Virus record (IMG/VR): IMGVR_UViG_3300049491_000404
Span: 1-28,276 of that record
Source of the DNA: a virus
DNA: 28,276 bases
Reading direction: 5' to 3' (one strand)
How positions within the stretch are numbered: the stretch's first letter is position 1; each line of letters begins with the position of its first letter. The notes beneath the pieces are model-generated. The model did not search any database. It was not told the origin of the DNA and saw only the letters and a program-made list of their open reading frames with translations. The position numbers were made by a program, and so were the translations under genes. Below are positions 2,079 through 22,551 of the stretch, piece by piece.

Positions 2079-2153
2079 TGGTAGCAGCGGTCGGAGTTGC
2101 ACCGACGACCTTCGGGTTATGAGCCCAACGAGATGCTGCTTCTCTACGCTGCA
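2079..2153 (-). tRNA. initiator-type tRNA-Met-like gene (anticodon CAT)
   Basis: The minus strand folds as a full cloverleaf of 75 nt with encoded CCA. The acceptor is TGCAGCG/CGCTGCT: six pairs plus a T1-T72 mismatch. The D stem is GAGA/TCTC, the anticodon arm TTGGG-CTCATAA-CCCGA, the variable loop AGGTC and the T stem GTCGG/CCGAC. Initiator hallmarks are present: mismatched 1-72, A11-U24, and three G-C pairs next to the anticodon loop. The anticodon and variable region matches the E. coli tRNA-fMet sequence as I know it. Oddities are a 7-nt D loop (AGCAGCA) without GG and a T loop TGCAACT in place of TTCRANY, so the usual elbow contacts cannot form. It follows a terminator and precedes the late genes. 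It could be a working phage tRNA or a tRNA mimic. Confidence 0.7.
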
Positions 2154-3293: not shown

Positions 3294-4439
3294 CTAGACG
3301 CCAGATGCGGGAATTGATGCTGTCGCCGCATCCGACCCTGCCCCAAACCTGCCCCGCGTTTCTGCGCGCCTGAATGCTGCCGCGATGTCCTCTGGCGCTG
3401 CTGACAGGTAGATCGCCGTGATGCGCAGACTGCTGTGGCGCATCGCCCGCCGGATCGCTTCCGGGTTGCAGCCGGCATCTGCCATGGCGAGCGCGCAGGC
3501 GTGCCTGAAGCCGTGCAGGCCGCGCTTGCGCAGGCCGAGACCGATCAGTAGCGCATGCAATCGCTCGCGCAGCGCCTGCGCCGTCTCCGGTCGTCCTGTG
3601 GCGTCCCGGAACAGGTAGCCCGTGTCGCAGGCGTCGAACGTCTCGCGGTAGGCGGTGAGCTGATCGAGGAGCCCGGGCGGTGCGGCGAGCACCGCGGCAC
3701 TGCCCTTGGTCTTGAGCGGCCTGATCTCGCCGTCGAGCGCCTGCTGGCGAACATCAACCAGGCCACGCTCGAGGTCGACGACGGGCCACTCGAGCCCGAG
3801 CACCTCGGAAGCGCGCAGGCCTAGCCGGTAGGCCAGCGCGTAGGCCGCTGCATCGCGCACCGTTGCCGCTCCGATGATGCGCAGGCACTCGGCATCGCTG
3901 AACGCCTTCTGGCGGACTGCAGCCGTCACCTTCGGGTTGGTCGGGATCTCACACTCGGCGAGCGTCGGCGGTGTCGCCGCGAGCCCTTCCCGCTTCGCCA
4001 CCATCAGCATGCGGCGCAGCACCGCGAACCGTGCGCCGACGGTGGCTGGGGCGGCGCCGGCCTGCTGCTCGCGGTTGATGAAGGCCTGCGCAGCGAACCG
4101 GTCGATTTTGTGCACCGGCCCACTGAACGCGCCACGCAAGTGCGACTCGATGATGGACGTCTGCGTCGCGACCGTGCCCTTCGCCTTCTTCGACAGGTGG
4201 TCGAGCAGGTAGCGGTCGACCCATTCGTTCCACTCGATCGGTGTGCCGGCGTGCAACTCTCGCGGATCGATGTTGTCGAGGTAGCGGTCGGCCGCCTGGC
4301 GCGCGGCCGCCCGGGTGCGCAGCTCGTCGATCGTGCCGATCCGCACCCAGATACGTCGCGTCTGCCCTTCTCCGTCGGTGCGGCGGAGTTTCAGCCGCCA
4401 CGTGCGGTGATCGAGGCGCAGCGTCCCGCGCTGCCTCAC
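3294..4439 (-). CDS. int: tyrosine recombinase (phage integrase)
   Basis: The 381-residue protein starts at GTG 4439 in a GTGA overlap with the VRR-NUC gene. The frame is open further upstream but that part reads through the nuclease gene. Residues 1-60 resemble the integrase arm-binding domain and 65-165 the SAM-like core-binding domain. The catalytic domain carries Arg209 (LRASEVLGLEW), a Lys at 243-245 (LKTKG), His309-x-x-Arg312 (HGFRH), His335 (HSSLR) and nucleophile Tyr344 (ITAIYLS), so it looks intact. It should catalyse integration or excision between attP and attB. It sits within a tightly coupled early operon, not beside the switch. A serine recombinase at 15358-16929 also occurs, so which one integrates this phage is open. 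Confidence 0.9.
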   Translation of the reverse strand: MRQRGTLRLDHRTWRLKLRRTDGEGQTRRIWVRIGTIDELRTRAAARQAADRYLDNIDPRELHAGTPIEWNEWVDRYLLDHLSKKAKGTVATQTSIIESHLRGAFSGPVHKIDRFAAQAFINREQQAGAAPATVGARFAVLRRMLMVAKREGLAATPPTLAECEIPTNPKVTAAVRQKAFSDAECLRIIGAATVRDAAAYALAYRLGLRASEVLGLEWPVVDLERGLVDVRQQALDGEIRPLKTKGSAAVLAAPPGLLDQLTAYRETFDACDTGYLFRDATGRPETAQALRERLHALLIGLGLRKRGLHGFRHACALAMADAGCNPEAIRRAMRHSSLRITAIYLSAAPEDIAAAFRRAETRGRFGAGSDAATASIPASGV

Positions 4440-4828
4440 AGGCGGGCCCTCACCACGACGTTGTGCGTGCCCTTGCGCAAGTACTTCTCGATGTCGAGCG
4501 CACACTCCTGCCAGTGCCAGTACGTGTTCACGTAGTGGCCGAATCCGCGCAGCAGCGTGTGCTTGTCGATCTGGTTCGGTGTCAGCTGGTTGCGGCCCGC
4601 CTTCAATTCCCACCAGCCACCGACGTAGCCACCGCAGGCAAGCGGGAGCTGCAGGTCGGGGACGCCGTCCTGCACGCCCATCGACTTGAAGATCGCGGCC
4701 TCTCGCGGTGAGCGCCAGCCACCCGCCGGGTAGTGCCAGAGCAGCGTCGACAGCGGCCGCGCACCGACGCTGACGAAGGACGCCCATTGCATCAGCGCGA
4801 TCTGGTCGAGTTGCTCGAGACGCTTCAC
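4436..4828 (-). CDS. VRR-NUC family nuclease
   Basis: From GTG 4828 (GTGA overlap with the upstream stop) the product is 130 residues. GTG 4849 is an alternative, but 4828 has GGTGGA upstream and matches the family's usual opening (EQLDQIALMQWA). The VRR-NUC fold shows in GVQDGVPDLQLP (catalytic Asp), WWELKAGRNQLTPNQ (catalytic Glu and Lys) and the downstream Gln/His helix. This PD-(D/E)XK subgroup includes phage replication/repair nucleases that cut branched or looped DNA. Here it is coupled directly to the integrase gene and lies in the replication operon, suggesting a role in resolving DNA intermediates. The family call is firm; the substrate is inferred. Confidence 0.8.
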   Translation of the reverse strand: MKRLEQLDQIALMQWASFVSVGARPLSTLLWHYPAGGWRSPREAAIFKSMGVQDGVPDLQLPLACGGYVGGWWELKAGRNQLTPNQIDKHTLLRGFGHYVNTYWHWQECALDIEKYLRKGTHNVVVRARL

Positions 4829-9688: not shown

Positions 9689-10086
9689 GTCATGAGTGCC
9701 AGCGCTGCGGCGAGAACAAGCCCGCGGGTGAAATGGTGGTGCGTGGAGGCAAGCCGTCGCGCACGTGTGTTGAGTGCTTCCGCAAGGCGATGGGCAAGCC
9801 GCGAGCGGGCAAAGCCACGGCCAGCACGCGGGCGAAACGCAGCAAGCGCCAGGCACGTGAGGTCGAGACCCAAGTACCCGAACCGGTGACGATCGCCGGG
9901 CTGAGCCTCGAGATCTTGCCGGGCTTCGGATTTCGTGCGGGCATTGAGAATGAGCATCTGCAGCTCGAGCAGGATGCGGGCCAGGGCGAAGACGCGCGTA
10001 CCGACAGCATCACGCTGAGCAAGACCGAGGCGAAGGTCTTCATCGTTCAGTTCGCGGAATGGGCGGGCGTGGAGCTGGCGGCATGA
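9685..10086 (+). CDS. zinc-finger early protein
   Basis: The 133-residue protein starts at ATG 9685 (ATGA overlap). Cys5, Cys8, Cys28 and Cys31 (ECQRCGENKP and RTCVECFRK) form a zinc-binding module. A very basic linker at about 35-60 (GKPRAGKATASTRAKRSKRQ) and an acidic C-terminal domain with strands (PVTIAGLSLEILPGFGFRAG) follow. The finger plus basic linker suggests nucleic-acid binding. It is ATGA-coupled to the ParB-like gene, so the two may work together. Confidence 0.6.
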   Translation: MSHECQRCGENKPAGEMVVRGGKPSRTCVECFRKAMGKPRAGKATASTRAKRSKRQAREVETQVPEPVTIAGLSLEILPGFGFRAGIENEHLQLEQDAGQGEDARTDSITLSKTEAKVFIVQFAEWAGVELAA

Positions 10087-11666
10087 GCACCAAGGCAAAG
10101 ACCGCGCTCCAGCGCTTCGCCGTCACCGAGGTAGCAATCGGCGCACTGACGCCCGACCCGAACCAGCCGCGCAAGGCCTTCGACGACAAGGCACTGCAGG
10201 GGCTCGCGGCCAGCATTGGCGAGCGCGGCATCCTGCAGCCGATCCTTGTTCGCCAGGACGGCAACCGCATCGTGATCGTCGACGGCGAGCGCCGCTGGCG
10301 CGCGGCGAAGCTCGCGAAGCTCAAGGTCGTGTCCGTGCTGCTCGCGGATCTCGACGAGGACGACGCACAGCAGCTGCTCGTTGACCAAGTGAGCGTGAAC
10401 CAGTTCCACGAACACCTGCGCCCGATGGACCTCGCCCGCGTGCTGCGCTCGATGCGCGACGCCGGCAAGACCGTGAACGACATCGCGGCCATGCTCGCGA
10501 AGCAGGGCCACGAGGCATTGAAGCCGGCGCAAATCACGGCCATGTCCGATCTCGTGGACCTGCCCGAGTGGGTTCACGCAATGGTCAACGCCGAGGAGAT
10601 CGAGGCCGGGCCGGCCGGCAAGCTGCTGCCGCTGATCGCGATCAAGGGTGTCGACAAGCCGCTGCAAAAGCGCCTGCACCAGGCGGCTGGATACACGGGC
10701 AAAGTTGCGGCGTCGAACGTTGAGCATGAAGCGAAGCGCGTCTTGGCCGACCTGTTCGCGGACCTTGGCCGGACTGACAGCTGGAGCAACAATCCCGTGC
10801 TGTTCGCGTGGAAAACGCGCTGCAAGGGCTGCGAGCACCTGCTGACGTTCGAGGGCAGCGGCTATTGCCGCAACGTGAAGCTGTTTCTCGAACACCAGAA
10901 GGAAGCCAAGGACGCTGGCCTGCTTCCGGGCGGCAAGCGCCCCGAGAAGCCGAAGCCGGTCACCGGCAAGGCCGCGGAGAAGGCCGAGGCCGCGAAGACC
11001 GAAGTGCGTGAGGCCTCGCTCGGCGAAAAGGCCCGCGACTACCTGCACAGTTACCTCGCTCGGAAGCTGCAGGGAGCGGTAGCCGATTCGCCACGCCTGG
11101 AGCGCGTGCTCGTCATTTGGGCTGCAATCAAGAAACCGGGGTCCTCCGGCGGCCGCGGTCCGCTTGGGGTGTTCTACGGTGGCGAGCCTGGCGCCAGCGC
11201 GGCGCAGTCGCAGGGCGTGGTCAGTCTTGAGTCGTTGCTGCTCGGCGACACGGATGACGAGACGGCGGCGATGGCAGCCGCCGCACAGGAAATCGTTTGC
11301 GATCTCCAATGGCGAGAGACACACGCCTTCGCTCGGTACTACTGGCCGAAGCTCGGCGATGTCTGGACGCCTGACGCAGCGTTCTTCGACCTGTTCCGCA
11401 AGGCCGAGCTCTTCCACCTCGCGGTGAAGCACGAGTGCAACCCGGGCGAGGGACGCCTGTGGGATCGCATGAAGGCCGGCGACGTCAAAGCGGCCCTGCT
11501 CAACGAGTCGCCGCGCATCACGCGGCCGGCCATTCTCGTCGATCTCTACGAGGGAGAGATCGACGAGCCCTACAACCCGCGGGGGTGGGACGAAGACGAA
11601 GACGACAGCCAGGACGAAGACGCGCTCGACGATGCGCCGCTCCCGGTTGAACAGCTGAGTGGCTGA
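10083..11666 (+). CDS. ParB-like protein with long C-terminal extension
   Basis: The 527-residue protein starts at ATG 10083 (ATGA overlap). Residues 15-110 are a ParB/Spo0J N-terminal domain: LTPDPNQPRKAF, LAASIGERGILQPILV and the GERRWRAA box (68-75) that binds CTP in this family. A helix-turn-helix-like domain follows (IAAMLAKQGHEALKPAQITA). Residues about 245-262 hold a cysteine cluster (TRCKGCEHLL, GYCRNVK). After a Lys/Glu-rich linker comes a C-terminal domain (about 385-500) and a very acidic tail (WDEDEDDSQDEDALDD). It is much longer than chromosomal ParB and resembles plasmid KorB/PRTRC-type ParBs. No ParA is encoded nearby, so a role in regulation or DNA loading is as likely as partition. 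Confidence 0.75.
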   Translation: MSTKAKTALQRFAVTEVAIGALTPDPNQPRKAFDDKALQGLAASIGERGILQPILVRQDGNRIVIVDGERRWRAAKLAKLKVVSVLLADLDEDDAQQLLVDQVSVNQFHEHLRPMDLARVLRSMRDAGKTVNDIAAMLAKQGHEALKPAQITAMSDLVDLPEWVHAMVNAEEIEAGPAGKLLPLIAIKGVDKPLQKRLHQAAGYTGKVAASNVEHEAKRVLADLFADLGRTDSWSNNPVLFAWKTRCKGCEHLLTFEGSGYCRNVKLFLEHQKEAKDAGLLPGGKRPEKPKPVTGKAAEKAEAAKTEVREASLGEKARDYLHSYLARKLQGAVADSPRLERVLVIWAAIKKPGSSGGRGPLGVFYGGEPGASAAQSQGVVSLESLLLGDTDDETAAMAAAAQEIVCDLQWRETHAFARYYWPKLGDVWTPDAAFFDLFRKAELFHLAVKHECNPGEGRLWDRMKAGDVKAALLNESPRITRPAILVDLYEGEIDEPYNPRGWDEDEDDSQDEDALDDAPLPVEQLSG

Positions 11667-11853
11667 TCCTGAAATGACCCGTTACGCGCGCAACAACCCG
11701 GAGCGCGATCGCGCAATCGTCGCCGATCGCCGAGCGGGTGCGTTTTACAAAGTGATCGCCGCGAAGCATGACCTGACCGACGAGCGCGTCCGACAGATCT
11801 GCATCGCGGCCGGGCTCACCCGCCGCCGGCGCTCACGTTCGAAAAAGCAATGA
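11659..11853 (+). CDS. small sigma-like helix-turn-helix protein
   Basis: Starting at GTG 11659 (8-nt overlap with the ParB-like gene) it has 64 residues; ATG 11674 is a possible start. RDRAIVADRRAGAFYKVIAA and KHDLTDERVRQICIAAGL form a helix-turn-helix like sigma-70 region 4, where 'DERVRQI' is typical of the recognition helix. The C-terminus is strongly basic (RRRRSRSKK). It lies directly before the retroelement targets and may regulate them; that is inference. Confidence 0.6.
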   Translation: MADPEMTRYARNNPERDRAIVADRRAGAFYKVIAAKHDLTDERVRQICIAAGLTRRRRSRSKKQ

Positions 11854-11861
11854 GGACACCC

Positions 11862-12281
11862 ATGACCACGTACACCAAGCTCGCAGCCGACCTGTCCCCA
11901 GTCGACACCGACCACCAGATCGTTCGCATAGAACACCCGCTGCTCGTGGTGCCGCTGCTCGTCACTGCTCACTTCGCGCCGAAGGAAATGACGTGGAAGG
12001 CCGCGAAGAAGTGGGCCGAGTCGTTGGATCTCGGCGGCCTCGCGTGGCGCCTGCCGACCATCGAGGAAGCGTTCTTCATCCCCGACCGCTCGAAGTACCC
12101 GGCGTACGACTCGACGGTCTTCGTCGGCGCGAAGGAAAAGTACCCGTGGATCTGGACCAGCACGGTCGATGCGGATGACCCCTCGGGCTTCGCGTGGGAC
12201 GTCTATCTCCATGACGGCGATTCCGGCCGGTTCTACCAGGACGGTCTCTATCTCGTCCTCGCGGTCCGCGCCGGTCAGTAG
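11862..12281 (+). CDS. DGR target protein 1 (DUF1566/C-type-lectin-like)
   Basis: The 139-residue protein starts at ATG 11862 with GAGG 6 nt upstream; ATG 11850 is possible. The N-terminal half is a short adaptor with a strand-rich part (HPLLVVPLLVTAHFAPKEM). Residues 62-85 show the DUF1566 signature (AWRLPTIEEAFFIP, DRSKYPAYD), then the CLec end WIWTSTVDADDPSGFAWDVY and LVLAVRAGQ. The last 33 codons are variable repeat 1, with variable residues in the ligand-facing pattern known from Mtd/TvpA-type proteins. Only three bases separate VR1 from the stop. A role as a displayed, diversified ligand-binding protein is inferred from the family. No signal peptide is seen. Confidence 0.85.
   Translation: MTTYTKLAADLSPVDTDHQIVRIEHPLLVVPLLVTAHFAPKEMTWKAAKKWAESLDLGGLAWRLPTIEEAFFIPDRSKYPAYDSTVFVGAKEKYPWIWTSTVDADDPSGFAWDVYLHDGDSGRFYQDGLYLVLAVRAGQ
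12180..12275 (+). repeat. DGR variable repeat 1 (VR1)
   Basis: This 96-bp segment aligns without gaps to the template at 13373-13468. All 15 differences fall on the 24 adenines of the template (A to T, G or C), and all 72 other positions are identical. Codons AAC/AAT in the template have become GAC, TAT, CAT, GAT, GGC, TTC, TAC and GGT here. The GC-rich 3' end is unchanged and reads GGTCAGT, against GGTGAGT in the template, which fits an initiation-of-mutagenic-homing (IMH) site. Confidence 0.97.
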
Positions 12282-12314
12282 TTTGGCCCTTGGCTCACCT
12301 CACCTGAGACACCC

Positions 12315-12872
12315 ATGAACGCATTCAAGAATGACCTTCACGACCTTGTCGCGCGGCACGTTGCTGCGGCACCGCCCGCGAAGCTGTTTCACCTGGTCGA
12401 GGCCATGGCCGGCGATACGGAACCGGCCGCGGTCAAGTTCGATGCGCGGCCGCGCTTCCTGAAGCTCGACCCCGCATGCAAGGAGACCGCCGGCGACCAC
12501 GTCGCGGTCTACGACCACACCACGGATCTCGTCTGGACGGCCGAGCCGCTGGGCAACGGATCCACGTTCAACCACGCCAACGCGCTCAAGGCATGCGCCG
12601 ACCTCGAGCTGCTCGGCTCAGCGGGCTGGCGCGCACCGACGATTCAGGAGCTGCTGTCGATCGTCGACTACACGCGCTACGACCCGGCCGTCGACACGGA
12701 GTATTTCAAGGCCCCGTACGGCTGGACGTGGTCAGCCACTGAGGCGGCGTCGCCCTCGGGCGTCGCGTGGAGCGTCGATCTCACTGACGGCTATTCCGAC
12801 CGGAACTACCAGGACTTTCGCAATCTCGTCCTCGCGGTCCGCGCCGGTCAGTCCCTGGGCTTTCGGTTCTGA
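12315..12872 (+). CDS. DGR target protein 2 (DUF1566/C-type-lectin-like)
   Basis: The 185-residue protein starts at ATG 12315. A helical N-terminal region (NDLHDLVARHVAAAPPAKLF) precedes a full DUF1566/Lcl-type domain from about residue 60: DHTTDLVWTAEPLG, HANALKACADLELLGSAGWR, APTIQELLSIVDYTRYDPAV, WTWSATEA and SGVAWSVDL to LVLAVRAGQ, ending SLGFRF. VR2 covers codons for about residues 145-178. It is longer than target 1 and adds six residues after the repeat. The 33-bp gap to target 1 and the shared leader GACACCCATG suggest gene duplication and joint expression. Probable role: diversified surface-binding protein. Confidence 0.88.
   Translation: MNAFKNDLHDLVARHVAAAPPAKLFHLVEAMAGDTEPAAVKFDARPRFLKLDPACKETAGDHVAVYDHTTDLVWTAEPLGNGSTFNHANALKACADLELLGSAGWRAPTIQELLSIVDYTRYDPAVDTEYFKAPYGWTWSATEAASPSGVAWSVDLTDGYSDRNYQDFRNLVLAVRAGQSLGFRF
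12747..12848 (+). repeat. DGR variable repeat 2 (VR2)
   Basis: This 102-bp segment aligns without gaps to 13367-13468. Eleven of the 24 template adenines are changed, with a single non-adenine change (T to G in the first variable codon, TAC to GTC). VR2 shares 6 more 5' bases with the template (GCGTCG) than VR1 does. The 3' end reads GGTCAGT, as in VR1. Confidence 0.97.
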
Positions 12873-12881
12873 AGCGCTGAA

Positions 12882-13313
12882 ATGAACCGCGAGCTGCCAC
12901 CAATCGCGAAGCTGGCCATGCGCGTCCTGGCTTGCGTCGAGGAAGCCGTCACGCGCTTCCCTCGCAGGCACCGGTACACGCTCGGCTCGGACCTCCGCAG
13001 TCGGGCGATGGCTGTGGCGCGTGCCACGCACATGGCGTGGCGCGACCAGACACGGCGGCAGCAGCGCGTGCACGAGCTGGCGCTCGCGATCGATGACCTG
13101 AAGATCACCCTGCAGCTCGGCAAAGAGGTGCAGGCATTCCGCAGCTTCGGACAGTTCGAAGCCGTGGCCCGACTCGTCAACGACCTCGGACGGCAATGTG
13201 GAGGGTGGCTGAAGCAGATGCGTTCTCAGGGCCAGAATGCGGCGAGCCAACCCTCGGCGCAGCGTGCCCCGACACTGAGTTCCCGTGCCGCCCTGCAAGG
13301 GGCATCACAGTGA
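12882..13313 (+). CDS. avd: DGR accessory variability determinant (Avd)
   Basis: The 143-residue protein starts at ATG 12882, 9 bp after target 2. It is an all-helical, Arg-rich protein: LPPIAKLAMRVLACVEEAVT, FPRRHRYTLGSDLRSRAM, AVARATHMAWRDQTRRQQRV, HELALAIDDLKITLQLGKEV and FRSFGQFEAVARLVNDLGRQ, matching the four-helix-bundle Avd/23S-IVP family. Avd forms a basic pentamer that holds template RNA and reverse transcriptase together, as known for Bordetella phage BPP-1. The C-terminus beyond about residue 115 is low-complexity and overlaps the RT start (CAGTGA: stop and GTG share bases), so the two are translationally coupled. Confidence 0.88.
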   Translation: MNRELPPIAKLAMRVLACVEEAVTRFPRRHRYTLGSDLRSRAMAVARATHMAWRDQTRRQQRVHELALAIDDLKITLQLGKEVQAFRSFGQFEAVARLVNDLGRQCGGWLKQMRSQGQNAASQPSAQRAPTLSSRAALQGASQ

Positions 13314-14608
13314 CGAAGATCCCCTACCCCTTCGGATGGGCATCCGGGTCCAAAGTGTGCGGGATAGCGTCGCCCTCGGGCTACGCGTGGAACGTCAATC
13401 TCAATGACGGCAATTCCAACCGGAACAACCAGGACAATCACAATCACGTCCTCGCGGTCCGCGCCGGTGAGTGTCAGGACGATGTTTCCTTCCGCGCCCT
13501 CCACGCGGCCTACCGCAAGGCGCGGCGCGGCAAGAAGCCGAGCGCCGACCAGCTCGCCTTCGACGCGAACTGGATCGACGAGCTGCTCGAGCTCGAGGAG
13601 CGGCTACGCGCAAGCACCTGGCACCCGTCGGCACCGACATGCTTCATCGCCGTGGCGCCCAAGGCCCGCGAGATCCACGCGCCGGCGTTCGCGGACCGCG
13701 TGGTGCACCACCTGATCGTCCCGCGCCTCGAGGCTATCTACGAGCCGACGTTCATCCACGACAGCCACTCGAACCGCATCGGCAAGGGCACGCACGTCGC
13801 GGTCCGACGCCTGCAGTCCTTCGTGCAGCAGGTCGCGAGCGGCCAGGGCGGCGGCTACTACCTGCAGCTCGACGTCCGCAACTTCTTCAACAGCATCCAC
13901 CGGCCGACGCTGTACGCCATGCTCAAGGTGCGCATGGAGCGGGCCGGGCTGCCCGAGTGGCAGCGCCGGGCGGTTCACGCCCTACTCGCCTACCCGATCA
14001 GCCGGACCGGCGTGCGCTGGGCCTGCACACCCGCCGAGCGCGAGCAGGTGCCCGCACACAAGCGGCTGGAGAGCGCCGCGCCTGGCTGCGGGATCGCGAT
14101 CGGCAACCTGTCGTCGCAGTTCTTCGCCAACGTCTATCTCGATCGGCTTGATCAGTTCGTGAAGCACGAGCTGAAGGTGCGGCGGTACGTCCGGTACGTG
14201 GACGATTTCGTGCTCGTGCACCGCGATCTAGTCCAGCTGGAAGTTTGGCGACTGAAAATACAGGAGTTTCTGCACAGTGAGCTTGGACTAGAACTGAAGG
14301 CCGAGCAGCGGCTCGCACCGCTGAGCCAGGGAATCGACTTCCTCGGCTACGTGACCTACCCGACGCACACGGTGGTGCGCCGTCGAGTCATTGGCCACGT
14401 TCGCGCGAAGCTCGCCGCCTGGGAACGTCTCCACGTGCGTGACGGGGAGATCCGCGGCAACCGCGAGGCCTGCGAGAAGCTGCGGGCCGTCTGGGCCAGC
14501 TACTGCGGACACTTCGGCCACGCCAGCAGCCATCAGCTGATGCAGCGGATCTTCGATCGCTTTCCCTGGCTCGTGTGGACAACGCTGGAGGTAAGCAATG
14601 AAGATTGA
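13310..14608 (+). CDS. DGR reverse transcriptase, with in-frame TR leader
   Basis: I start at GTG 13310 (GTGA overlap with avd, AAGGGG 7 nt upstream), giving 432 residues; GTG 13355 is an alternative. No NTG start exists between the TR and the first conserved RT residues, so residues 20-53 are TR-encoded. The usual RT start corresponds to FRALHAAYRKARRGKKPS (61-78). RT motifs: LQLDVRNFFNSI (Asp188), GIAIGNLSSQFF (264-270, the DGR-type replacement of QGxxxSP), YVRYVDDFVL (catalytic Asp298-Asp299), and GIDFLGY. The thumb follows to residue 420. It makes adenine-mutagenised cDNA from TR RNA for transfer to the VRs. All catalytic residues are present. Confidence 0.95.
   Translation: MTKIPYPFGWASGSKVCGIASPSGYAWNVNLNDGNSNRNNQDNHNHVLAVRAGECQDDVSFRALHAAYRKARRGKKPSADQLAFDANWIDELLELEERLRASTWHPSAPTCFIAVAPKAREIHAPAFADRVVHHLIVPRLEAIYEPTFIHDSHSNRIGKGTHVAVRRLQSFVQQVASGQGGGYYLQLDVRNFFNSIHRPTLYAMLKVRMERAGLPEWQRRAVHALLAYPISRTGVRWACTPAEREQVPAHKRLESAAPGCGIAIGNLSSQFFANVYLDRLDQFVKHELKVRRYVRYVDDFVLVHRDLVQLEVWRLKIQEFLHSELGLELKAEQRLAPLSQGIDFLGYVTYPTHTVVRRRVIGHVRAKLAAWERLHVRDGEIRGNREACEKLRAVWASYCGHFGHASSHQLMQRIFDRFPWLVWTTLEVSNED
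13367..13468 (+). repeat. DGR template repeat (TR)
   Basis: This is the 102-bp template with 24 adenines, most of them in eight AAC/AAT codons (Asn codons can mutate to 15 amino acids at two positions without giving stops). It encodes SPSGYAWNVNLNDGNSNR and then NNQDNHNHVLAVRAG. Its 3' end carries GGTGAGT, the altered form (IMH*) that keeps the template itself from being a target. It lies between avd and the conserved RT domain, inside the RT frame. Confidence 0.97.
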
Positions 14609-14681
14609 ACGCATTATTGGCGTCGTCATATTCATCGCCCTGGGACTGCTAGTCGTCAAGGTGCTGACGGGGTGGCCGTGA
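14598..14681 (+). CDS. 27-residue membrane peptide
   Basis: ATG 14598 has a perfect GGAGG 6 nt upstream, inside the end of the RT gene. The peptide is MKIERI plus one hydrophobic helix (IGVVIFIALGLLVVKVL) and TGWP. The strong ribosome site, an 11-nt overlap with RT and a GTGA overlap with the next gene argue that it is translated. The function is unknown; small single-span peptides in phages can be holin-like or modulate host membrane proteins. Confidence 0.6.
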   Translation: MKIERIIGVVIFIALGLLVVKVLTGWP

Positions 14682-14908
14682 TCCTCGATGAAGCCGGACT
14701 CCGCTGGCAGATCCTCCGCTCGGCGATGGGTCCGCATGGCGAGGAATGCGTGCAACGGGGATGCGTACAGCACAAGCGCATCACCAGCCTGACGCAACGG
14801 CCCAACGCGGACGCCGGCTACGTGACGCTGTACTACGTGGACGGCCTGGCTAACCAGTACCACACGCCGGCTGAGGCGCTCCGGGCAATGAGGGAAAACC
14901 CGGCGTGA
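14678..14908 (+). CDS. small protein of unknown function
   Basis: Starting at GTG 14678 (GTGA overlap) it has 76 residues. It has two cysteines (ECVQRGC), a beta-rich centre (GYVTLYYVDGLANQYHT) and a C-terminal helix (PAEALRAMRENP). No family is recognised. It lies in the coupled chain after the RT. Confidence 0.55.
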   Translation: MILDEAGLRWQILRSAMGPHGEECVQRGCVQHKRITSLTQRPNADAGYVTLYYVDGLANQYHTPAEALRAMRENPA

Positions 14909-15018
14909 GCCCGGCCCTGCGCAACTTGGTGCAGCTGCTGGCCCGCCGCGCCTACGAGCGCGAGCGCCAGCGCGAGCAGGAACGGGAGAAATTGCCAGCT
15001 CCCCGACCGGCGGCGTAG
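14905..15018 (+). CDS. 37-residue basic/charged peptide
   Basis: GTG 14905 overlaps the previous stop as GTGA. The product is a single charged helix (LVQLLARRAYERERQREQER) with a Pro-rich tail. Only the 4-base coupling, repeated throughout this phage, supports it. Confidence 0.4.
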   Translation: MSPALRNLVQLLARRAYERERQREQEREKLPAPRPAA

Positions 15019-15058
15019 GCTCCCGGCCCGCTGCACCGATACCGTCGGAGATCCCGTC

Positions 15059-15352
15059 GTGGGAATGTTTGACACCCTGATTGTTCGCCATGAGCTACCC
15101 AGCGCGCTGCGCAAGCCACCCATCGGCGCATGGTGGCAGACGCAGGATCTTGAATGCGTTTTGGAGACTTACACGCTCACCGAAGATGGTCGCCTGCTCG
15201 ATCCGATGGGGCAGCTGCTTGCCTTTGATGGACCGCTTGAGTTCTACACAGGCGATCAGGGCTGGTGGTGGTTGTACGAAGCTCAGTTCATGTCCGGCGA
15301 GTTGCAAACCATCGCGCTGGTTGCGTGCACCGCTCCTGTTGGGGAGCAATAA
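15059..15352 (+). CDS. small protein of unknown function
   Basis: The 97-residue protein starts at GTG 15059 with GGAG 8 nt upstream; ATG 15065 is an alternative. It opens MGMFDTLIVRHELPSALRK and has a Trp-rich, beta-type centre (WWQTQDLECVLETYTL, GDQGWWWLYEAQF). Proteins that open MFD-L and contain a 'QTKDLDC'-like stretch are common small phage/plasmid hypotheticals of unknown role. It ends 5 bp before the serine recombinase, so the two are probably co-transcribed. Confidence 0.6.
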   Translation: MGMFDTLIVRHELPSALRKPPIGAWWQTQDLECVLETYTLTEDGRLLDPMGQLLAFDGPLEFYTGDQGWWWLYEAQFMSGELQTIALVACTAPVGEQ

Positions 15353-15357
15353 CGCTG

Positions 15358-16929
15358 ATGCGCGCCGCCCTCTACGCCCGGTTCTCCACCGACAAACAGT
15401 CGAGCACCTCAGATCAGCTGCGCGTGTGTGCGGCGCTCGCAGAGCGCGAAGGCTTCACGGTCGTTCACCAGTTCACCGACGAGGCACTCAGCGGCGGCAC
15501 GGCAAGCCGGCCAGGCTATCAGGCCATGCTGACCGCGGTGCGCGCCGGCGAAGTCCAGGTGATCGTCGCCGAGGATCAATCGCGTCTGTGGCGCAACATG
15601 GCCGAGCAGGCGCCGCGCATGGCCGAACTGATCGACCTCGGGGTGTTCGTCGTTACCCACGACAACGACACGCGGCAGGAGATGTCCGACTGGATGAGCG
15701 CCATCCTGGGCACCTCATCGCAGGTGTACCGCAAGGAGATCGGGCGCCGCGTCCGCCGCAGTGCCGAGGGACGAGCTCGAGCGGGCAAGCCGGTTGGCGG
15801 TCGCGCCTACGGCTACAGCTCGACGCGGGAAATCCTGCCGGACCAGGCCGAGGTCGTCCGCGAGATCTTCTCGCGGTTTGCCGCCGGCGACACGCTGCTG
15901 TCGATCGCCAGCGACCTGAACGTGCGTGGGGTTCCGTCCCCTGGCTCAGTGTGGACCCGCAAGACTCGACGAAGTGACGGCGCGTGGATGATCTCCGCGC
16001 TGCACTCGATGCTGAAGAACGACGTGTACACCGGCCAAATCGTCTGGAACCGCCGCACCTGGGTGCGCTCGGCCGTTGACTCGTCGAAACGCAGGCCGGT
16101 GATGAACCCGCCCAGCACATGGATCGTTCACGAGCGGCCAGATCTCCGGCTGGTCGACGAGGTCACCTGGCATCGCGTGCAGAAGCGCCTGGCGGAGCGG
16201 CGTGACTTCTACAAGCCGGGGCCGGGCGCCAGGTCGCAATACCTACTGTCCGGATTGCTCCGGTGTGGCATCTGCGGGGCGGCGTACGTGATCACGGCTC
16301 ACCGGCCGGTGCGGTATGCGTGCTCGTCGCGCAAGCATGGGGGCGACTCGGTCTGCGGGAACCGGCTGACGCTCCGAAAGGACGTGGCCGAGGAGGCCCT
16401 GATCGCGCCCGTGGTCGAGCAGCTGCTGTCGCCGGCGGCGATCGACCTGGCCGTGAAGACGATGCAGCAGCTTGCGGCCGAGGCCGGCAAGCCGCCGACA
16501 CCCGCGGCACTGGAAAAGATCGATGGCGAGCTGGCGGAGCTGCAACGCCTGACGGCGGCCGGAGTGTTGTCACAGGAGACGGTTGGGGAAATGCGTCAGC
16601 GATTGCTGGAACGCAGGGGCATGCTCGAGCGCGAGATCCGCAAGTCGAACGTGTCGCGGGCTGTCTTCGGGGCCGAACGCATCTACCGCGAAGCCGTGGC
16701 CGACATGCGGGAGATCCTGCAGGGGGACGATGTCCGCGCTGCGCAGGAAGTACTTCGGGATCTGGTCGGGGAGATTCCCCTGGTGCCGGACAGCACGGAG
16801 CCGGTGCTGTGGGCCCAGTTGGCCGCCCGCCCACTCGCTTTGGCAGCGGCAGGCGGGGTCAACTGGAGTGGTAGCGGGGGGCTGATTTGGAGCGGTTTGC
16901 AGGTCCGTTTGCCGGCCGGCTGGGGCTAG
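15358..16929 (+). CDS. large serine recombinase
   Basis: The 523-residue protein starts at ATG 15358; the open frame extends upstream but overlaps the preceding gene. Residues 1-140 are the resolvase catalytic domain with nucleophile Ser10 (ALYARFSTDKQ) and Arg8, Arg76 and Arg79 (EDQSRLWRN). Residues 150-280 are the recombinase domain (PDQAEVVREIFSRFAAGDTL, AWMISALHSMLKNDVYTGQI). A zinc ribbon follows (Cys303, Cys306, Cys322, Cys333), then a coiled coil at about 385-435 (KIDGELAELQRL, MRQRLLERRGMLEREIRK). All catalytic features are present. Such enzymes integrate phages and ICEs at short attP/attB sites or move transposons. With an intact tyrosine integrase elsewhere, it may be a second integrase, an inversion switch, or cargo. 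Confidence 0.92.
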   Translation: MRAALYARFSTDKQSSTSDQLRVCAALAEREGFTVVHQFTDEALSGGTASRPGYQAMLTAVRAGEVQVIVAEDQSRLWRNMAEQAPRMAELIDLGVFVVTHDNDTRQEMSDWMSAILGTSSQVYRKEIGRRVRRSAEGRARAGKPVGGRAYGYSSTREILPDQAEVVREIFSRFAAGDTLLSIASDLNVRGVPSPGSVWTRKTRRSDGAWMISALHSMLKNDVYTGQIVWNRRTWVRSAVDSSKRRPVMNPPSTWIVHERPDLRLVDEVTWHRVQKRLAERRDFYKPGPGARSQYLLSGLLRCGICGAAYVITAHRPVRYACSSRKHGGDSVCGNRLTLRKDVAEEALIAPVVEQLLSPAAIDLAVKTMQQLAAEAGKPPTPAALEKIDGELAELQRLTAAGVLSQETVGEMRQRLLERRGMLEREIRKSNVSRAVFGAERIYREAVADMREILQGDDVRAAQEVLRDLVGEIPLVPDSTEPVLWAQLAARPLALAAAGGVNWSGSGGLIWSGLQVRLPAGWG

Positions 16930-16936
16930 ATCTGCC

Positions 16937-17248
16937 GTGCCGATTCGGCCGGAAAACAGGACTCGCTACCCGTCGGACTGGGCCTTGCGCAGCTACTTCG
17001 TCAGGTTCGTACGAGCGCGCGGGCTGTGCGAGTGGTGCGGTGCCGCGGATTTGTGCGCTCACCCGATCACGGGCTCCAAGGTCGTCCTGACGACGGCCCA
17101 CGTCCACGACGATCGCCCGGAGGCCTCAGGCCTGCTTAACCTGGCCGCCCTCTGTCAGCGCTGCCACCTGCGGCACGATGCCAAACTGCATGCGCGCAAC
17201 GCTCGAGCGAGGGTCATCGCGGAGTCTGGTCAGCTCGCCCTGCTTTGA
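16937..17248 (+). CDS. HNH-type nuclease-like protein
   Basis: The 103-residue protein starts at GTG 16937, 7 bp after the serine recombinase. Cys31/Cys34 (LCEWCGA) and Cys73/Cys76 (LCQRCHLRHD) form the zinc frame, with TAHVHDDRP (His55) and NLAALC (Asn68) supplying the HNH catalytic pattern. The N-terminus is basic (RPENRTRYPSDW). It may act in DNA packaging, as HNH proteins beside phage packaging genes do, or as a homing or host-DNA nuclease. Its last 35 nt overlap the convergent Rz-like gene. Either way it is the last gene of the rightward operon. Confidence 0.75.
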   Translation: MPIRPENRTRYPSDWALRSYFVRFVRARGLCEWCGAADLCAHPITGSKVVLTTAHVHDDRPEASGLLNLAALCQRCHLRHDAKLHARNARARVIAESGQLALL

Positions 17249-19074: not shown

Positions 19075-22000
19075 CTAAGAGATTTCCGTGACCAGCAGCG
19101 ATGAATTTCGGCGGCGCACGGTCGCGCCAGCGTTGCTTGTGTTTTGCGCCCATCGGTAACTGAACGTGCCGCCGCTCGCACCGACTTCGATCTGCACGGT
19201 GATCTGCGCGACGTTCGTCTGCGTGCCTGTGTTGGCCACCGCCTGCGACGTGTTCAGCGCGTCGCCCGACACAATCAGTACGGTTGAACCCACCGCGCCA
19301 GCCGCGAGGCTCGAGGTGGTCATCGTTGAATGTAGCCACACCCAGAACATCGATGTCGTCGTGCCGGTAAAGTTGAGATCCCACTTGGCATCGGCTGTCG
19401 CGTTCGTATCGGTCTGAACGTAGATCTCGATGCGGTACTTTTTGCTGGCCGTCAGCGTCGTTACAAGAGCCGCGTCATCCGCGAGAACGGCATCGCTTGC
19501 TTTCGACTGGTTGGCATTCGCATAGACGCCATACGTGCCACCGGCCGCGGCGCCTACCGACCCCCAAAGCGGATTGCCGCCGGCGCCGCTCGTCTGCAGG
19601 ACATGGCCAGCCGTGCTACCGGCCGCGAGTCGGGCCCACGAGCTCGCTCCCCGGTACAGGATATCGCCTTGCGCCGCCGAACCAATGAAGTCCAGAAGCT
19701 CGGAAAGTGTGCAGTCTTCCGGGTCGCCAGTACTGCCGGTTTTGCGCGCCTTGATGGCGTTTGCGACCATGTTCGCGAGCTTCGCGTTCGTCACCGCGTC
19801 ATTGGCAATCGTTGCCGCCGCGCTGCCTGGCCCGGTCGCCGTTACATCTCCGGTCAGAGCGCTGATGGCTCCGCTGCCACTGGTGAGCTGCGCGAACGCG
19901 ATCGACGTACTGCCGACCGTGATCGTGGCATTCGTCGAGCAGGTCCACTGTGTATCAGCGAGAGTCGTTCCCTCACTCACGTAGACCGTCGCGTTGACGA
20001 GCTCGGCGCCGGTGTTGGCATCGAGCGCCCGGGTCGGTGCGCCGCTCGCGTTGACGGTGTAAATGCCGTTCTCGCTGGCGCTCGCCTGATCCTTAAGCAG
20101 GATTCGATCGCCGGTGGCCAATGTCACGCCGTCGACGGTGTCGCCATTCTCGAAGCTCGATGCGAGCGTGCCGGCGACCGTCGTCGCCGCCCGCACGGCC
20201 TGCTTCCACGAGATGCCGGCCACCAGGTTGTCAATGTACGACTTAACGGCCGCCTGCGTGGGAACGTTGCTGTTGCTATTTGCTGCCAGCGTCGTGTCGG
20301 TGTCGGAAGCTAGCGTCGCTACCGTGCCAAGACCGAGCGTCGTCCGCATTGCGGAGGTCGTCGTGTCATCCAGCACGGTACGAGCGGCGGCGGTGACAAC
20401 GGACGAATCGAAGTTAAGCGCAGTTCCACCGCCACTGACTACGATGTCACCGTAGTCGCCGTCAGACAGCCCACCGCCCGTGCCGCCACTGATCTGTGCG
20501 AACACCAGCGACGTCGAACCGAGCGTGATCGGCGCATCCGTCGTGCACGAGAATTGCTTGTTTCCGTTCGCCGTCCCTTCGCTGACGAAGACAGTCGCAC
20601 CCAGGATCTCGGCCGAGCTGTCGGCATCGGTCGCCCGGGAAGGCGCGCCGCTCGCCTTCACGACATAGATGCCGTTCTGGGACGCGGTTGACTGATCCTT
20701 TAGCAGTATGCGATCACCCGTGGCGAGCGTCACGCCGTCAACGGTGTCGCCGTTCTCGAAGGCACTGGCCAGCGTACCGTTCGCGGTGGTAGCGACGCGG
20801 ACAGGCGCCTTCCACGCGAGCAGACGGATAGCCAGGTCCCACGGAGCAGGAGTCGTACCACCGGCGCCGTCGAAGGTTTGGTACGAGCCGCCGCCGTCGG
20901 CGACGTAGACAACGGGCGCGCCGTCAACTGTCTCGAAGACCCACTCCGACTCCTCTTCGTCCCAGGTCGCGACTTCGCCCGCGTGTCCAGCCCAGGCGCC
21001 GGTGGCGCCGGTCGGCACGTAGTAGGTGTCGCCATCCGCCGGCGAGCCAGGCGGCGCAGTGGTCGTCGCGGACAGCACCGTGCCGCCCGTCGAGTTCTCC
21101 TCGTCCGGCGTGTCGGGGCGGGTTGGAATTGCATCGACCGACGTTGCTGCCGTGTAGACCGACGTTGCAAGCCCGAAGATGTCCTCGGCAATGTCGATCT
21201 CGATCGAGCCGTCCTCGAGCGTGCCCTTGCGGATCGCCATGACCCGGTGCACGACATCGACGAGGCCTTCCTTCTCCCACGAGAACCGGAAGACGTGACC
21301 CTGCTGATACTTCCAGGCGCGCCGACTGCAACGAATGGTGCCGCGACCGAGCGGCGTCGAACGCTGTGCGAGTTCGCGCGCAGCGACTGTCTGCGCGACA
21401 CCAGCGTTGCGGATGCCGGGGAACTGGACGGCCTGCGAAATCACGCGGCCTTGCGAGCGGATGTTGCCGAGGTCGTGAACGGGCACGCCCGTCGACTTGA
21501 AGCTGTCCGGATCGGTATAGAAGACGTTGATTTCGTTGACCGTCTCGCCCCAGCCCTGGCGCGAGTAACGGACCATCTCGATCACGGTGTCTTCGTCGAT
21601 CAGGTCGAGGTCGGCAGCGACGTAGTTGTCGCGCAGCAATGTCAGCGTGTACTTGCCGGTCGTCGGATCTTCGCCGAGGACCATGCCGGCGTGTGAGCAG
21701 ACCTCGCCCAGGAAGCCCTCGAGCTCGTCGGTGTTCACCCACTGGATGTTGAGACCGAAGTTCTCGGTGACGAACTGGTCGGCGGCGGCGCCGAAGGAAA
21801 CCTCGTCGATCGACGCGCCGGGCTCGCCGTATCCAAAGTTCGAGTTCGTCAGCACCTCGTAGACGATGTGCGCCGGGTTCATGCCACCGTCAACCGTGAC
21901 GTCAGCAGGGTTCCAGCAGGTCCCTCCTTCCCAGCCAGCCGCCGTGCGGCGAACCGTGAACGAGACCGGCTTCAGGTACTGGCTCTTGCCGACGTACCCA

Positions 22001-22551
22001 CCCTTCCACACCACCGAGGTGACGCCGCGGTAGGCCGACAGCGGCGCCCCGATGTTGGCCAGCAGGTAGGCGTTCGGGGACTGGGTCTGTTCGCCCATGT
22101 CCAGATCGAAGAACCCAACCAGGCCGCCCTCGCCGTTCTTGCCGCCGAAGAGCTTCGGCAGGTCGATCGACTCGGTGCCGGAGGTCGAGCGGCTACCCGA
22201 CCATGCAATCTTGTCGTCCCACTCCCAGGCCATGAACTCGTCGATCGGCCCGAACGACAGGACGTAGTGGAGGCCGAGGTAGTACTTGTAGCCCGTGGTC
22301 TGCGACGAGCCGAAGAGCGACTTCTTCTTGATCGGCTTCTTGTCGAGGTCGCCATACCAGACGACGTTCGGGCCGGTGATCCGCACCGTGCCGAAGATCA
22401 CGGGGATCGAGCGCCCCTCCTCCGCGGTAGGAACCGTGAAGTCCTCGAGCGAAGCTGCCTTGGCTTTGGGTGGGCGTGGGGCGAGCGCAATGGAGATGAT
22501 CGTCGTCGCGACGAACCAGATGGCTTGGACGACCCAGACTGGCCAGATCAC
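19075..22551 (-). CDS. tail-tip / host-specificity protein (gpJ-like)
   Basis: The 1158-residue protein starts at GTG 22551, sharing a base with the upstream stop (TAGTG). After an N-terminal hydrophobic segment (VWVVQAIWFVATTIISIALA) come PVIFGTVRITGPNVVWYGDL, a tail-hub-like region to about residue 470 (AHIVYEVLTNSNFGYGEP, LEGFLGEVCSHAGMVLGEDP), and then Thr/Ser/Gly-rich fibre-like sequence. Two copies of a roughly 110-residue unit lie at about 579-689 and 781-893, and a C-terminal domain of about 150 residues ends the protein. As for lambda gpJ and the gene-transfer-agent hub, it should form the tail tip and contact the host receptor. It is the last virion gene before the lysis cassette. 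Confidence 0.85.
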   Translation of the reverse strand: MIWPVWVVQAIWFVATTIISIALAPRPPKAKAASLEDFTVPTAEEGRSIPVIFGTVRITGPNVVWYGDLDKKPIKKKSLFGSSQTTGYKYYLGLHYVLSFGPIDEFMAWEWDDKIAWSGSRSTSGTESIDLPKLFGGKNGEGGLVGFFDLDMGEQTQSPNAYLLANIGAPLSAYRGVTSVVWKGGYVGKSQYLKPVSFTVRRTAAGWEGGTCWNPADVTVDGGMNPAHIVYEVLTNSNFGYGEPGASIDEVSFGAAADQFVTENFGLNIQWVNTDELEGFLGEVCSHAGMVLGEDPTTGKYTLTLLRDNYVAADLDLIDEDTVIEMVRYSRQGWGETVNEINVFYTDPDSFKSTGVPVHDLGNIRSQGRVISQAVQFPGIRNAGVAQTVAARELAQRSTPLGRGTIRCSRRAWKYQQGHVFRFSWEKEGLVDVVHRVMAIRKGTLEDGSIEIDIAEDIFGLATSVYTAATSVDAIPTRPDTPDEENSTGGTVLSATTTAPPGSPADGDTYYVPTGATGAWAGHAGEVATWDEEESEWVFETVDGAPVVYVADGGGSYQTFDGAGGTTPAPWDLAIRLLAWKAPVRVATTANGTLASAFENGDTVDGVTLATGDRILLKDQSTASQNGIYVVKASGAPSRATDADSSAEILGATVFVSEGTANGNKQFSCTTDAPITLGSTSLVFAQISGGTGGGLSDGDYGDIVVSGGGTALNFDSSVVTAAARTVLDDTTTSAMRTTLGLGTVATLASDTDTTLAANSNSNVPTQAAVKSYIDNLVAGISWKQAVRAATTVAGTLASSFENGDTVDGVTLATGDRILLKDQASASENGIYTVNASGAPTRALDANTGAELVNATVYVSEGTTLADTQWTCSTNATITVGSTSIAFAQLTSGSGAISALTGDVTATGPGSAAATIANDAVTNAKLANMVANAIKARKTGSTGDPEDCTLSELLDFIGSAAQGDILYRGASSWARLAAGSTAGHVLQTSGAGGNPLWGSVGAAAGGTYGVYANANQSKASDAVLADDAALVTTLTASKKYRIEIYVQTDTNATADAKWDLNFTGTTTSMFWVWLHSTMTTSSLAAGAVGSTVLIVSGDALNTSQAVANTGTQTNVAQITVQIEVGASGGTFSYRWAQNTSNAGATVRRRNSSLLVTEIS
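19873..20211 (-). repeat. tail-tip internal repeat, copy 2
   Basis: Codons for SWKQAVRAATTVAG to AFAQLTSG, including FENGDTVDGVTLATGDRILL, form the second copy of a repeated fibre module. It is similar at DNA level to copy 1 (20485-20817), which points to a tandem duplication that has since diverged. The FENGDTVDG...DRILLKDQ...NGIY pattern is common in phage tail-fibre proteins. Confidence 0.85.
20485..20817 (-). repeat. tail-tip internal repeat, copy 1
   Basis: Codons for AWKAPVRVATTANG to FAQISGG form the first copy of the module, with the same FENGDTVDGVTLATGDRILL core as copy 2. About 90 residues with a different composition separate the two copies. Confidence 0.85.

Follow-up and report, generated by a model that had tools for sequence, protein, structure and literature searches.

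Most of what can be read on the mechanism of diversity-generating retroelements (DGRs) rests on phage BPP-1 (gene order mtd, avd, TR, brt), where an RNA downstream of the template repeat (TR) recruits and primes the reverse transcriptase (RT). This spacer RNA folds, recruits the bRT-Avd complex and supplies the priming adenine, and a motif in the 3' end of avd terminates reverse transcription (PMC12875486). A GC-rich hairpin or cruciform follows the variable repeat (VR) in BPP-1-type elements (PMC3240598). DGRs in which the TR overlaps the open reading frame (ORF) of the RT were catalogued by Schillinger et al. (2012), who judged the arrangement irrelevant to the mechanism (PMC3521204). Here, a DGR of the latter kind is described from the virus record IMGVR_UViG_3300049491_000404 of IMG/VR (positions 1 to 28,276, i.e., the whole record, in the following referred to as the window), in which one TR serves two target genes. 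The DGR itself is ordinary and the overlap of TR and RT has been known since 2012, but the architecture of its RNA, comprising a conserved 5' leader and a helix (P1) pairing this leader with the far side of the TR, is new and suggests a role in priming. A description of the 5' leader or of P1 was not found in the literature searched; an earlier account of the leader may nevertheless exist.

Compared with BPP-1, the window shares the RT family, Avd, adenine-specific differences between TR and VR, a C-type-lectin target, the marker difference between the initiation of mutagenic homing (IMH) site and its counterpart IMH*, and the order target-avd-TR-RT. In contrast, it has no spacer between TR and RT (the TR-brt distance in BPP-1 is 144 nt), its TR lies inside the RT frame, a conserved RNA is found upstream of the TR, two targets are present and the hairpin after the VR is missing. 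As its TR overlaps the beginning of the RT ORF, the window belongs to structural group 3 of Schillinger et al.; that class is positional, however, whereas the overlap of the window type is, by sequence comparison, translated, is conserved in 60 loci and is tied to a covarying leader. In Vibrio phage VP58.5 and Pseudoalteromonas phage ACA1, the annotated RT likewise begins at the avd stop codon and crosses the TR, but a spacer of about 150 nt separates the TR from the RT core, and both phages belong to the BPP-1 side of the RT tree.

A conserved RNA leader pairing across the template repeat

For 49 loci of the clade to which the window belongs (clade A), all with the TR inside the RT frame, the leader was aligned (alignment A3), and RNAalifold, run on this alignment with no structure supplied, recovered the four helices P1 to P4 (Table 1). 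In the leader, 98.1% of the alignment cells are paired compared to 86.2% in shuffled alignments, and none of 500 shuffles reached the observed value by any measure. Cells changed on both sides amount to 115, versus 24 in the shuffles, with double changes in 15 of the 23 pairs, while partners slid against each other as a control are paired in only 19–49% of cells. The P1 pair 13273-13473, for example, occurs as CG in 21, AU in 16, UA in 7, GC in 3 and UG in 2 of the 49 sequences, and P4 of the window contains compensated A-U pairs. Counted from the RNAalifold pair table, 73 cells are G-U and only 9 are A-C, hence it is the sense-strand RNA that is conserved and not the DNA.

P1 sits at the boundary between TR and VR. 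The last base shared by both repeats is 13468, the adjacent G/C marker position forms a G13277/G13469 mismatch, and A13278, an invariant adenine two bases after the 5' strand of P1, faces T13468. The strand facing the TR end, GACACUGA, is located upstream of the TR. An RNA strand pairing with the 3' edge of the TR is thus present both here, on the 5' side, and in BPP-1, where it lies downstream: AUCACCU, located at the TR end, has its complement in the spacer sequence AGGUGGU, and an adenine numbered Sp56 follows two bases after the latter. The 2018 work of Handa and colleagues reportedly identifies this adenine as the primer.

The template repeat is read in the RT frame

The RT start codon GTG (13310-13312) overlaps the avd stop codon TGA (13311-13313) as GTGA and is preceded by AAGGGG, and all 60 of the clade-A loci keep such an overlap (ATGA or GTGA). 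From the end of the TR up to position 13652, already inside the RT domain, in-frame ATG, GTG or TTG codons are absent, and GTG 13310 is, judged from the sequence, the only plausible RT start. Due to the overlap with the avd stop, the TR is translated in frame as an N-terminus of the RT that is predicted to be disordered. In the predicted structure, residues 1-52, encoded by leader and TR, have a predicted local distance difference test score (pLDDT) below 50, whereas the core, starting after about residue 55 and about 30 nt past the TR, mostly exceeds 90. Within clade A, the RT N-terminus has the sequence MT[KT]PRYP.GC.AGSQ or similar, beginning about 60 nt 5' of the TR, and the RT frame is open across the TR in every locus with a detected TR.

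An open frame through the TR was dropped as evidence in its own right, the high G+C content leaving three frames open in many loci, and codon tests were used for this reason. The ratio of nonsynonymous to synonymous differences per site (pN/pS) in the 5' extension of the RT is 0.60 in frame (0.51-0.69 over random disjoint pair sets), compared to 1.04 and 1.11 in the other frames, indicating that the N-terminal extension is under purifying selection at the protein level. Hence, the TR reads as coding sequence of its own copying enzyme, with one RNA segment being both the 5' coding part of the RT messenger RNA (mRNA) and the template. In three clade-A loci (L009, L070, and L133; L numbers denote the loci of our collection) and in clade B, the TR is read in a frame unlike that of the VR, giving a Thr-rich peptide, and still joins the RT frame; these lineages have therefore shifted the frame yet kept the fusion. 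Synonymous divergence (pS) right after the TR is 0.54, compared to 0.36-0.54 elsewhere in the RT. As this value is not lowered, a hidden spacer RNA is not indicated there, and a structured spacer of the BPP-1 type was not found in the short interval between TR and RT core.

Distribution of the leader and position in the RT tree

The relatives collected comprise 53 loci from viral contigs, 78 from bacterial genomes and 15 phage loci, two of the latter covering BPP-1. Clade A includes Stenotrophomonas, Xanthomonas, Rhodanobacter, Dyella, Lysobacter, Steroidobacter and others, with L062 coming from Rhodanobacter glycinis and L069 from Stenotrophomonas rhizophila. A covariance model (R1) built on the leader alone recovers all 10 clade-A loci searched, window included, and finds 17 clade-C loci outside its training set, either directly or no more than about 60 nt 5' of the TR. 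When P1 strands of the same locus were compared with those permuted between loci, the own combination was favored in clade C (p = 5e-5) as well as in clade B, where 0 of 20000 permutations reached the observed value. In 299 genomes of one bacterial family, R1 gave 11 matches. Nine of these loci were read and are DGRs with intact P1, among them L158 and L162, which are new to the set and possess a perfect P1; the remaining two are known DGR loci. In L165, the start had been missed by automated detection.

In an RT tree of 118 sequences, one branch with a Shimodaira-Hasegawa-like approximate likelihood ratio test (SH-aLRT) support of 100 splits spacer-type DGRs from those in which the TR abuts the RT. 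The spacer-type side includes BPP-1, VP58.5, ACA1, BalMu-1, FP_Lagaffe, ANMV-1 virus and others, two rows being without a detected TR. The tree stems from a quick search and has some long branches, and neither its root nor the placement of Bacteroides phage F2 (L148) is fixed. Clade B, with Burkholderia phage Magia, Pseudomonas phages LPPA56 and phPA-G and Shewanella phage QDWS, resembles the window in having a TR that directly adjoins the RT core, is part of the RT frame and has P1 at its 3' edge, but differs in leader sequence and in the frame of the TR. As R1 gave no credible match in clade B, the BPP-1-type phages or Bacteroides phage F2, homology of the leader is not claimed for these. 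By inspection, the same kind of pairing is seen in phage F2 between GTTATCTG and CAGATAAC.

Some loci deviate in organization. REP-associated (Y1) transposase-like ORFs are inserted between TR and RT in L126 (3379-3909), L112 (2282-2815) and L102 (1648-2166), and L102 carries two copies of the RT N-terminus, one on either side of the insert. L040 and L041 encode clade-B-like RTs but no TR/VR pair was detectable in them, possibly as a result of decay or of a distant target.

Template, variable repeats and adenine pattern

A preliminary description of the window had reported a complete DGR in which one template serves two targets, each altered independently, and TR, both VRs, both targets, avd and RT are indeed found where it had placed them (Table 1). 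The gap-free match of 102 bp given there applies to VR2, where similarity to the TR extends 6 bp further 5' (to 13367), whereas for VR1 the match is 96 bp. Recounting over 96 bp, with 24 template adenines, gave the same differences as reported earlier: VR1 is changed at 15 adenines and at no other base, and VR2 at 11 adenines plus T13382G. If differences were random over the 96 sites, the probability of this bias would be 1e-11 for VR1 (15/15 on adenine) and 3e-7 for VR2 (at least 11 of 12 on adenine). The substitutions from TR to the VRs are A>T (14), A>G (10), A>C (2) and T>G (1), and 13 of the 14 sites at which VR1 and VR2 differ from each other are template adenines. Just past the shared block, position 13469 is G in the TR and C in both VRs, in line with the clade-A loci inspected, which throughout show GGT followed by CAG after the VR and by GAG after the TR. 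A further VR is not present in the window. What the preliminary description had missed is the identity of the TR as RT coding sequence, the absence of the BPP-1 spacer and the conserved 5' RNA leader with its pairing across the TR.

The earlier interpretation had named VRs invariant among relatives, or differences not biased to adenine, as outcomes speaking against it. Among relatives with at least 98.5% identical TR and conserved flanks, pooled VR differences were found at 208 of 597 template-adenine sites but only at 37 of 2182 others (odds ratio 31), with 25 of the 37 stemming from a single indel-shifted pair. In the cleanest comparison, L021/L022 versus L034, TR and flanks are identical while the VR differs at 11 of 23 adenines and at 0 of 94 other positions. 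Hence, the interpretation holds by its own test. A near-identical copy of the window phage was not found among the relatives, so that a fixed TR with variable VRs is seen in family members only.

Downstream of most clade-A VRs, a stretch CAGTRAT(C/T)GGCC.TTTTG is conserved (e.g., 12276-12295 in the window) without forming a hairpin of at least 6 bp, and no stem of at least 6 bp was found after VR1 or VR2 of the window.

Proposed mechanism and alternative explanations

Altogether, the locus is probably a working-type DGR diversifying two lectin-fold proteins from one template, on a branch with permuted template RNA. Avd and RT would bind the 5' leader, replacing the spacer, and P1 would bring the 3' end of the TR into the active site of the RT, with complementary DNA (cDNA) synthesis beginning adjacent to 13468, the last position where VR and TR agree. 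Leader and P1 might in this way do the job of the downstream spacer of BPP-1. The invariant A13278 beside P1 is a candidate priming nucleotide, by analogy with A56 of the BPP-1 spacer (Sp). The base equivalent to A13278 differs in clades B and C, hence the identity of the primer may differ as well. The mutagenized cDNA would then take the place of the VR, with G versus C at 13469 possibly keeping the two repeats distinct. With the RT ribosome-binding site covered by P3, the RNA can probably serve either as messenger or as template at a given time, but not as both. With about even chances, a single deep split in the sampled RT tree separates a 3'-spacer design of DGRs, as in BPP-1, from a 5'-leader design with an upstream positioning or priming strand; in the derived 5'-leader clades, the enzyme would be translated from and copy the same segment, with folding switching the RNA between messenger and template.

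Several results weigh against this mechanism. Priming, assembly of the ribonucleoprotein and homing are all deduced here from sequence. In single-sequence searches of the TR edge against upstream and downstream RNA, P1 did not rise above shuffles, and folding of the window RNA by itself was no more stable than that of shuffled sequences (z-score −0.20). The single-sequence helix search gave no signal in most groups, the known BPP-1 pairing included; with these tests being negative, the case for the RNA rests on covariation. A hairpin downstream of the VR, as needed in BPP-1, was seen in 9 of 109 cases in clade A, compared to about 11% expected by chance. Moreover, P1 is mismatched in some clade-C loci (e.g., L095, L097, and L105), and R1 does not match clade B, where recognition of the leader relied on visual inspection and the P1 permutation.

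The most serious rival explanation, which we consider unlikely, is that the leader controls RT translation and nothing else, with P3 hiding the ribosome-binding site and coupling the RT to avd, and P1 merely stabilizing the fold. This would well account for P3, the 3' strand of which is the Shine-Dalgarno stretch just 5' of the start codon in 49 of 49 sequences, and for the invariable overlap of avd and RT in the 60 clade-A loci. However, translation control does not require a P1 partner about 200 nt away, past the TR and exactly at the TR/VR boundary. Leader and TR also stay together in L126, L102 and L112 despite the transposase-like ORF before the RT; as these insertions may be recent, they argue only weakly for the leader belonging with the TR. 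It is improbable that the leader acts instead as a 5' terminator of cDNA synthesis, with priming proceeding by another route. The leader does cover the avd 3' end, as does the terminator of BPP-1 (PMC12875486), but ending synthesis would not call for a P1 partner at the 3' edge of the TR, the place where copying begins. The leader might also serve both functions.

Two further explanations concern the sequence downstream of the TR. A conventional BPP-1-like spacer hidden in the RT coding sequence is conceivable insofar as TR and RT share a transcript and the BPP-1 spacer likewise sits between TR and brt, but it is very improbable given the synonymous divergence past the TR, which is not reduced relative to the remaining RT, and the absence of any RNAalifold helix in the stretch included past P1. 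It is hardly credible that the RT starts at a rare codon past the TR, with the open TR frame being a by-product of high G+C. Stop codons are indeed rare in all TR frames at this G+C content. Such a start, however, conflicts with the lack of ATG, GTG and TTG up to 13652, the purifying selection on the extension codons and the start-stop overlap found without exception, as well as with L009, L070, and L133, where the TR is in another frame and yet joined to that of the RT.

A conserved RNA fold upstream of the TR points to a second possible way for DGRs to start copying. The group concerned is large, with phages and prophages of Lysobacterales, Pseudomonas, Burkholderia, Shewanella and Bacteroides, and leaves no room for a spacer RNA; leader and P1 would explain how cDNA synthesis starts in these TR-abutting DGRs. 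In addition, the leader provides a covariance model for locating such elements and names single base pairs for swaps. With the TR inside the RT mRNA, ribosome and reverse transcriptase would use the same RNA, which raises the question how access to it is divided.

Genes of the cassette and phage context

TABLE 1. Positions of the DGR components, leader helices and integrase genes in the window.
Feature	Position	Strand	Description
Target gene 1	11862-12281	+	139 amino acids from ATG 11862 (in-frame ATG at 11850); Pfam PF07603 Lcl_C/DUF1566, E 2e-13
VR1	12180-12275	+	C-terminus of target gene 1; followed by IMH CAG (12276-12278)
Target gene 2	12315-12872	+	185 amino acids; Lcl_C C-type-lectin fold with helical N-terminus; Pfam E 2e-23
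VR2	12753-12848	+	near C-terminus of target gene 2; followed by IMH CAG
avd	12882-13313	+	PHROG 3206 'Avd protein of DGR', E 4.7e-18
5' RNA leader domain (model R1)	13258-13373	+	avd 3' end, RT ribosome-binding site, RT start, first RT codons
P1, 5' strand	13271-13276	+	GACACT, pairs with 13470-13475; 99.7% of cells paired over 49 sequences
P2	13282-13288 with 13357-13363	+	7/7 pairs changed on both sides; 97.7% paired
P3 hairpin	13290-13303 (stem 13290-13293/13300-13303)	+	3' strand is RT Shine-Dalgarno stretch; 98.5% paired
DGR reverse transcriptase	13310-14608	+	432 amino acids; PHROG RT E 1e-101; IGNLSSQ and YVDD
P4 hairpin	13318-13344	+	inside RT codons 3-12; 96.3% paired, 4/5 pairs changed on both sides
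TR	13373-13468	+	96 bp, read in frame 0 of RT (PSGYAWNVNLNDGNSNRNNQDNHNHVLAVRAG)
IMH* marker	13469-13471	+	GAG after TR versus CAG after VRs
P1, 3' strand	13470-13475	+	AGTGTC, immediately past last transferable TR base
Large serine integrase; tyrosine integrase	15265-16926; 3294-4787	+; −	serine type directly downstream of DGR

In agreement with the preliminary assignment to the DUF1566/C-type-lectin class, both targets carry the Pfam Lcl_C domain. The AlphaFold (AF2) model of target 2 has a pLDDT of 91.8, and its best match in the PDB by Foldseek is the C-terminal domain of Legionella Lcl (8q4e, E 4e-5), followed by C-type lectins. Avd and an RT with both motifs, IGNLSSQ and YVDD, had also been recognized before, and the PHROG matches bear this out, while the Pfam bAvd score of 38.1 bits is slightly below the cut-off. 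For the RT, a profile of close relatives gives as best PDB match the chain set 8ub7 plus eight further entries (E 1e-52), the 8ub7 chain set being 328 amino acids long and deposited as 'Reverse transcriptase.' The 8ub7 series represents the ribonucleoprotein of BPP-1 as solved by cryo-EM. At the gathering threshold, Rfam does not match anything at the DGR.

Minus-strand tail genes as well as ParB, replication-initiation and integrase genes identify the window as phage DNA. The co-occurrence of a serine and a tyrosine integrase in one 28-kb record is unusual. The DGR lies within a plus-strand accessory block (10059-17245, with ParB, targets, avd, RT and integrase) apart from the tail operon, and neighbors of the DGR in L004, L006, L060, L062, L069 and L075 are ParB, AAA, DNA methylase or integrase genes; given this setting, the targets may not be tail fibers. 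The sole Rfam match in the window is a tRNA gene (2082-2153, minus strand, 52.8 bits) amid overlapping ORFs, possibly an attachment site or a phage tRNA. Finally, in the lambda-J-like tail protein (19075-22551, minus strand), a stretch of about 100 residues (W-K-x-x-V-R-x-A-T-T ... F-A-Q) occurs twice in nearly identical form.

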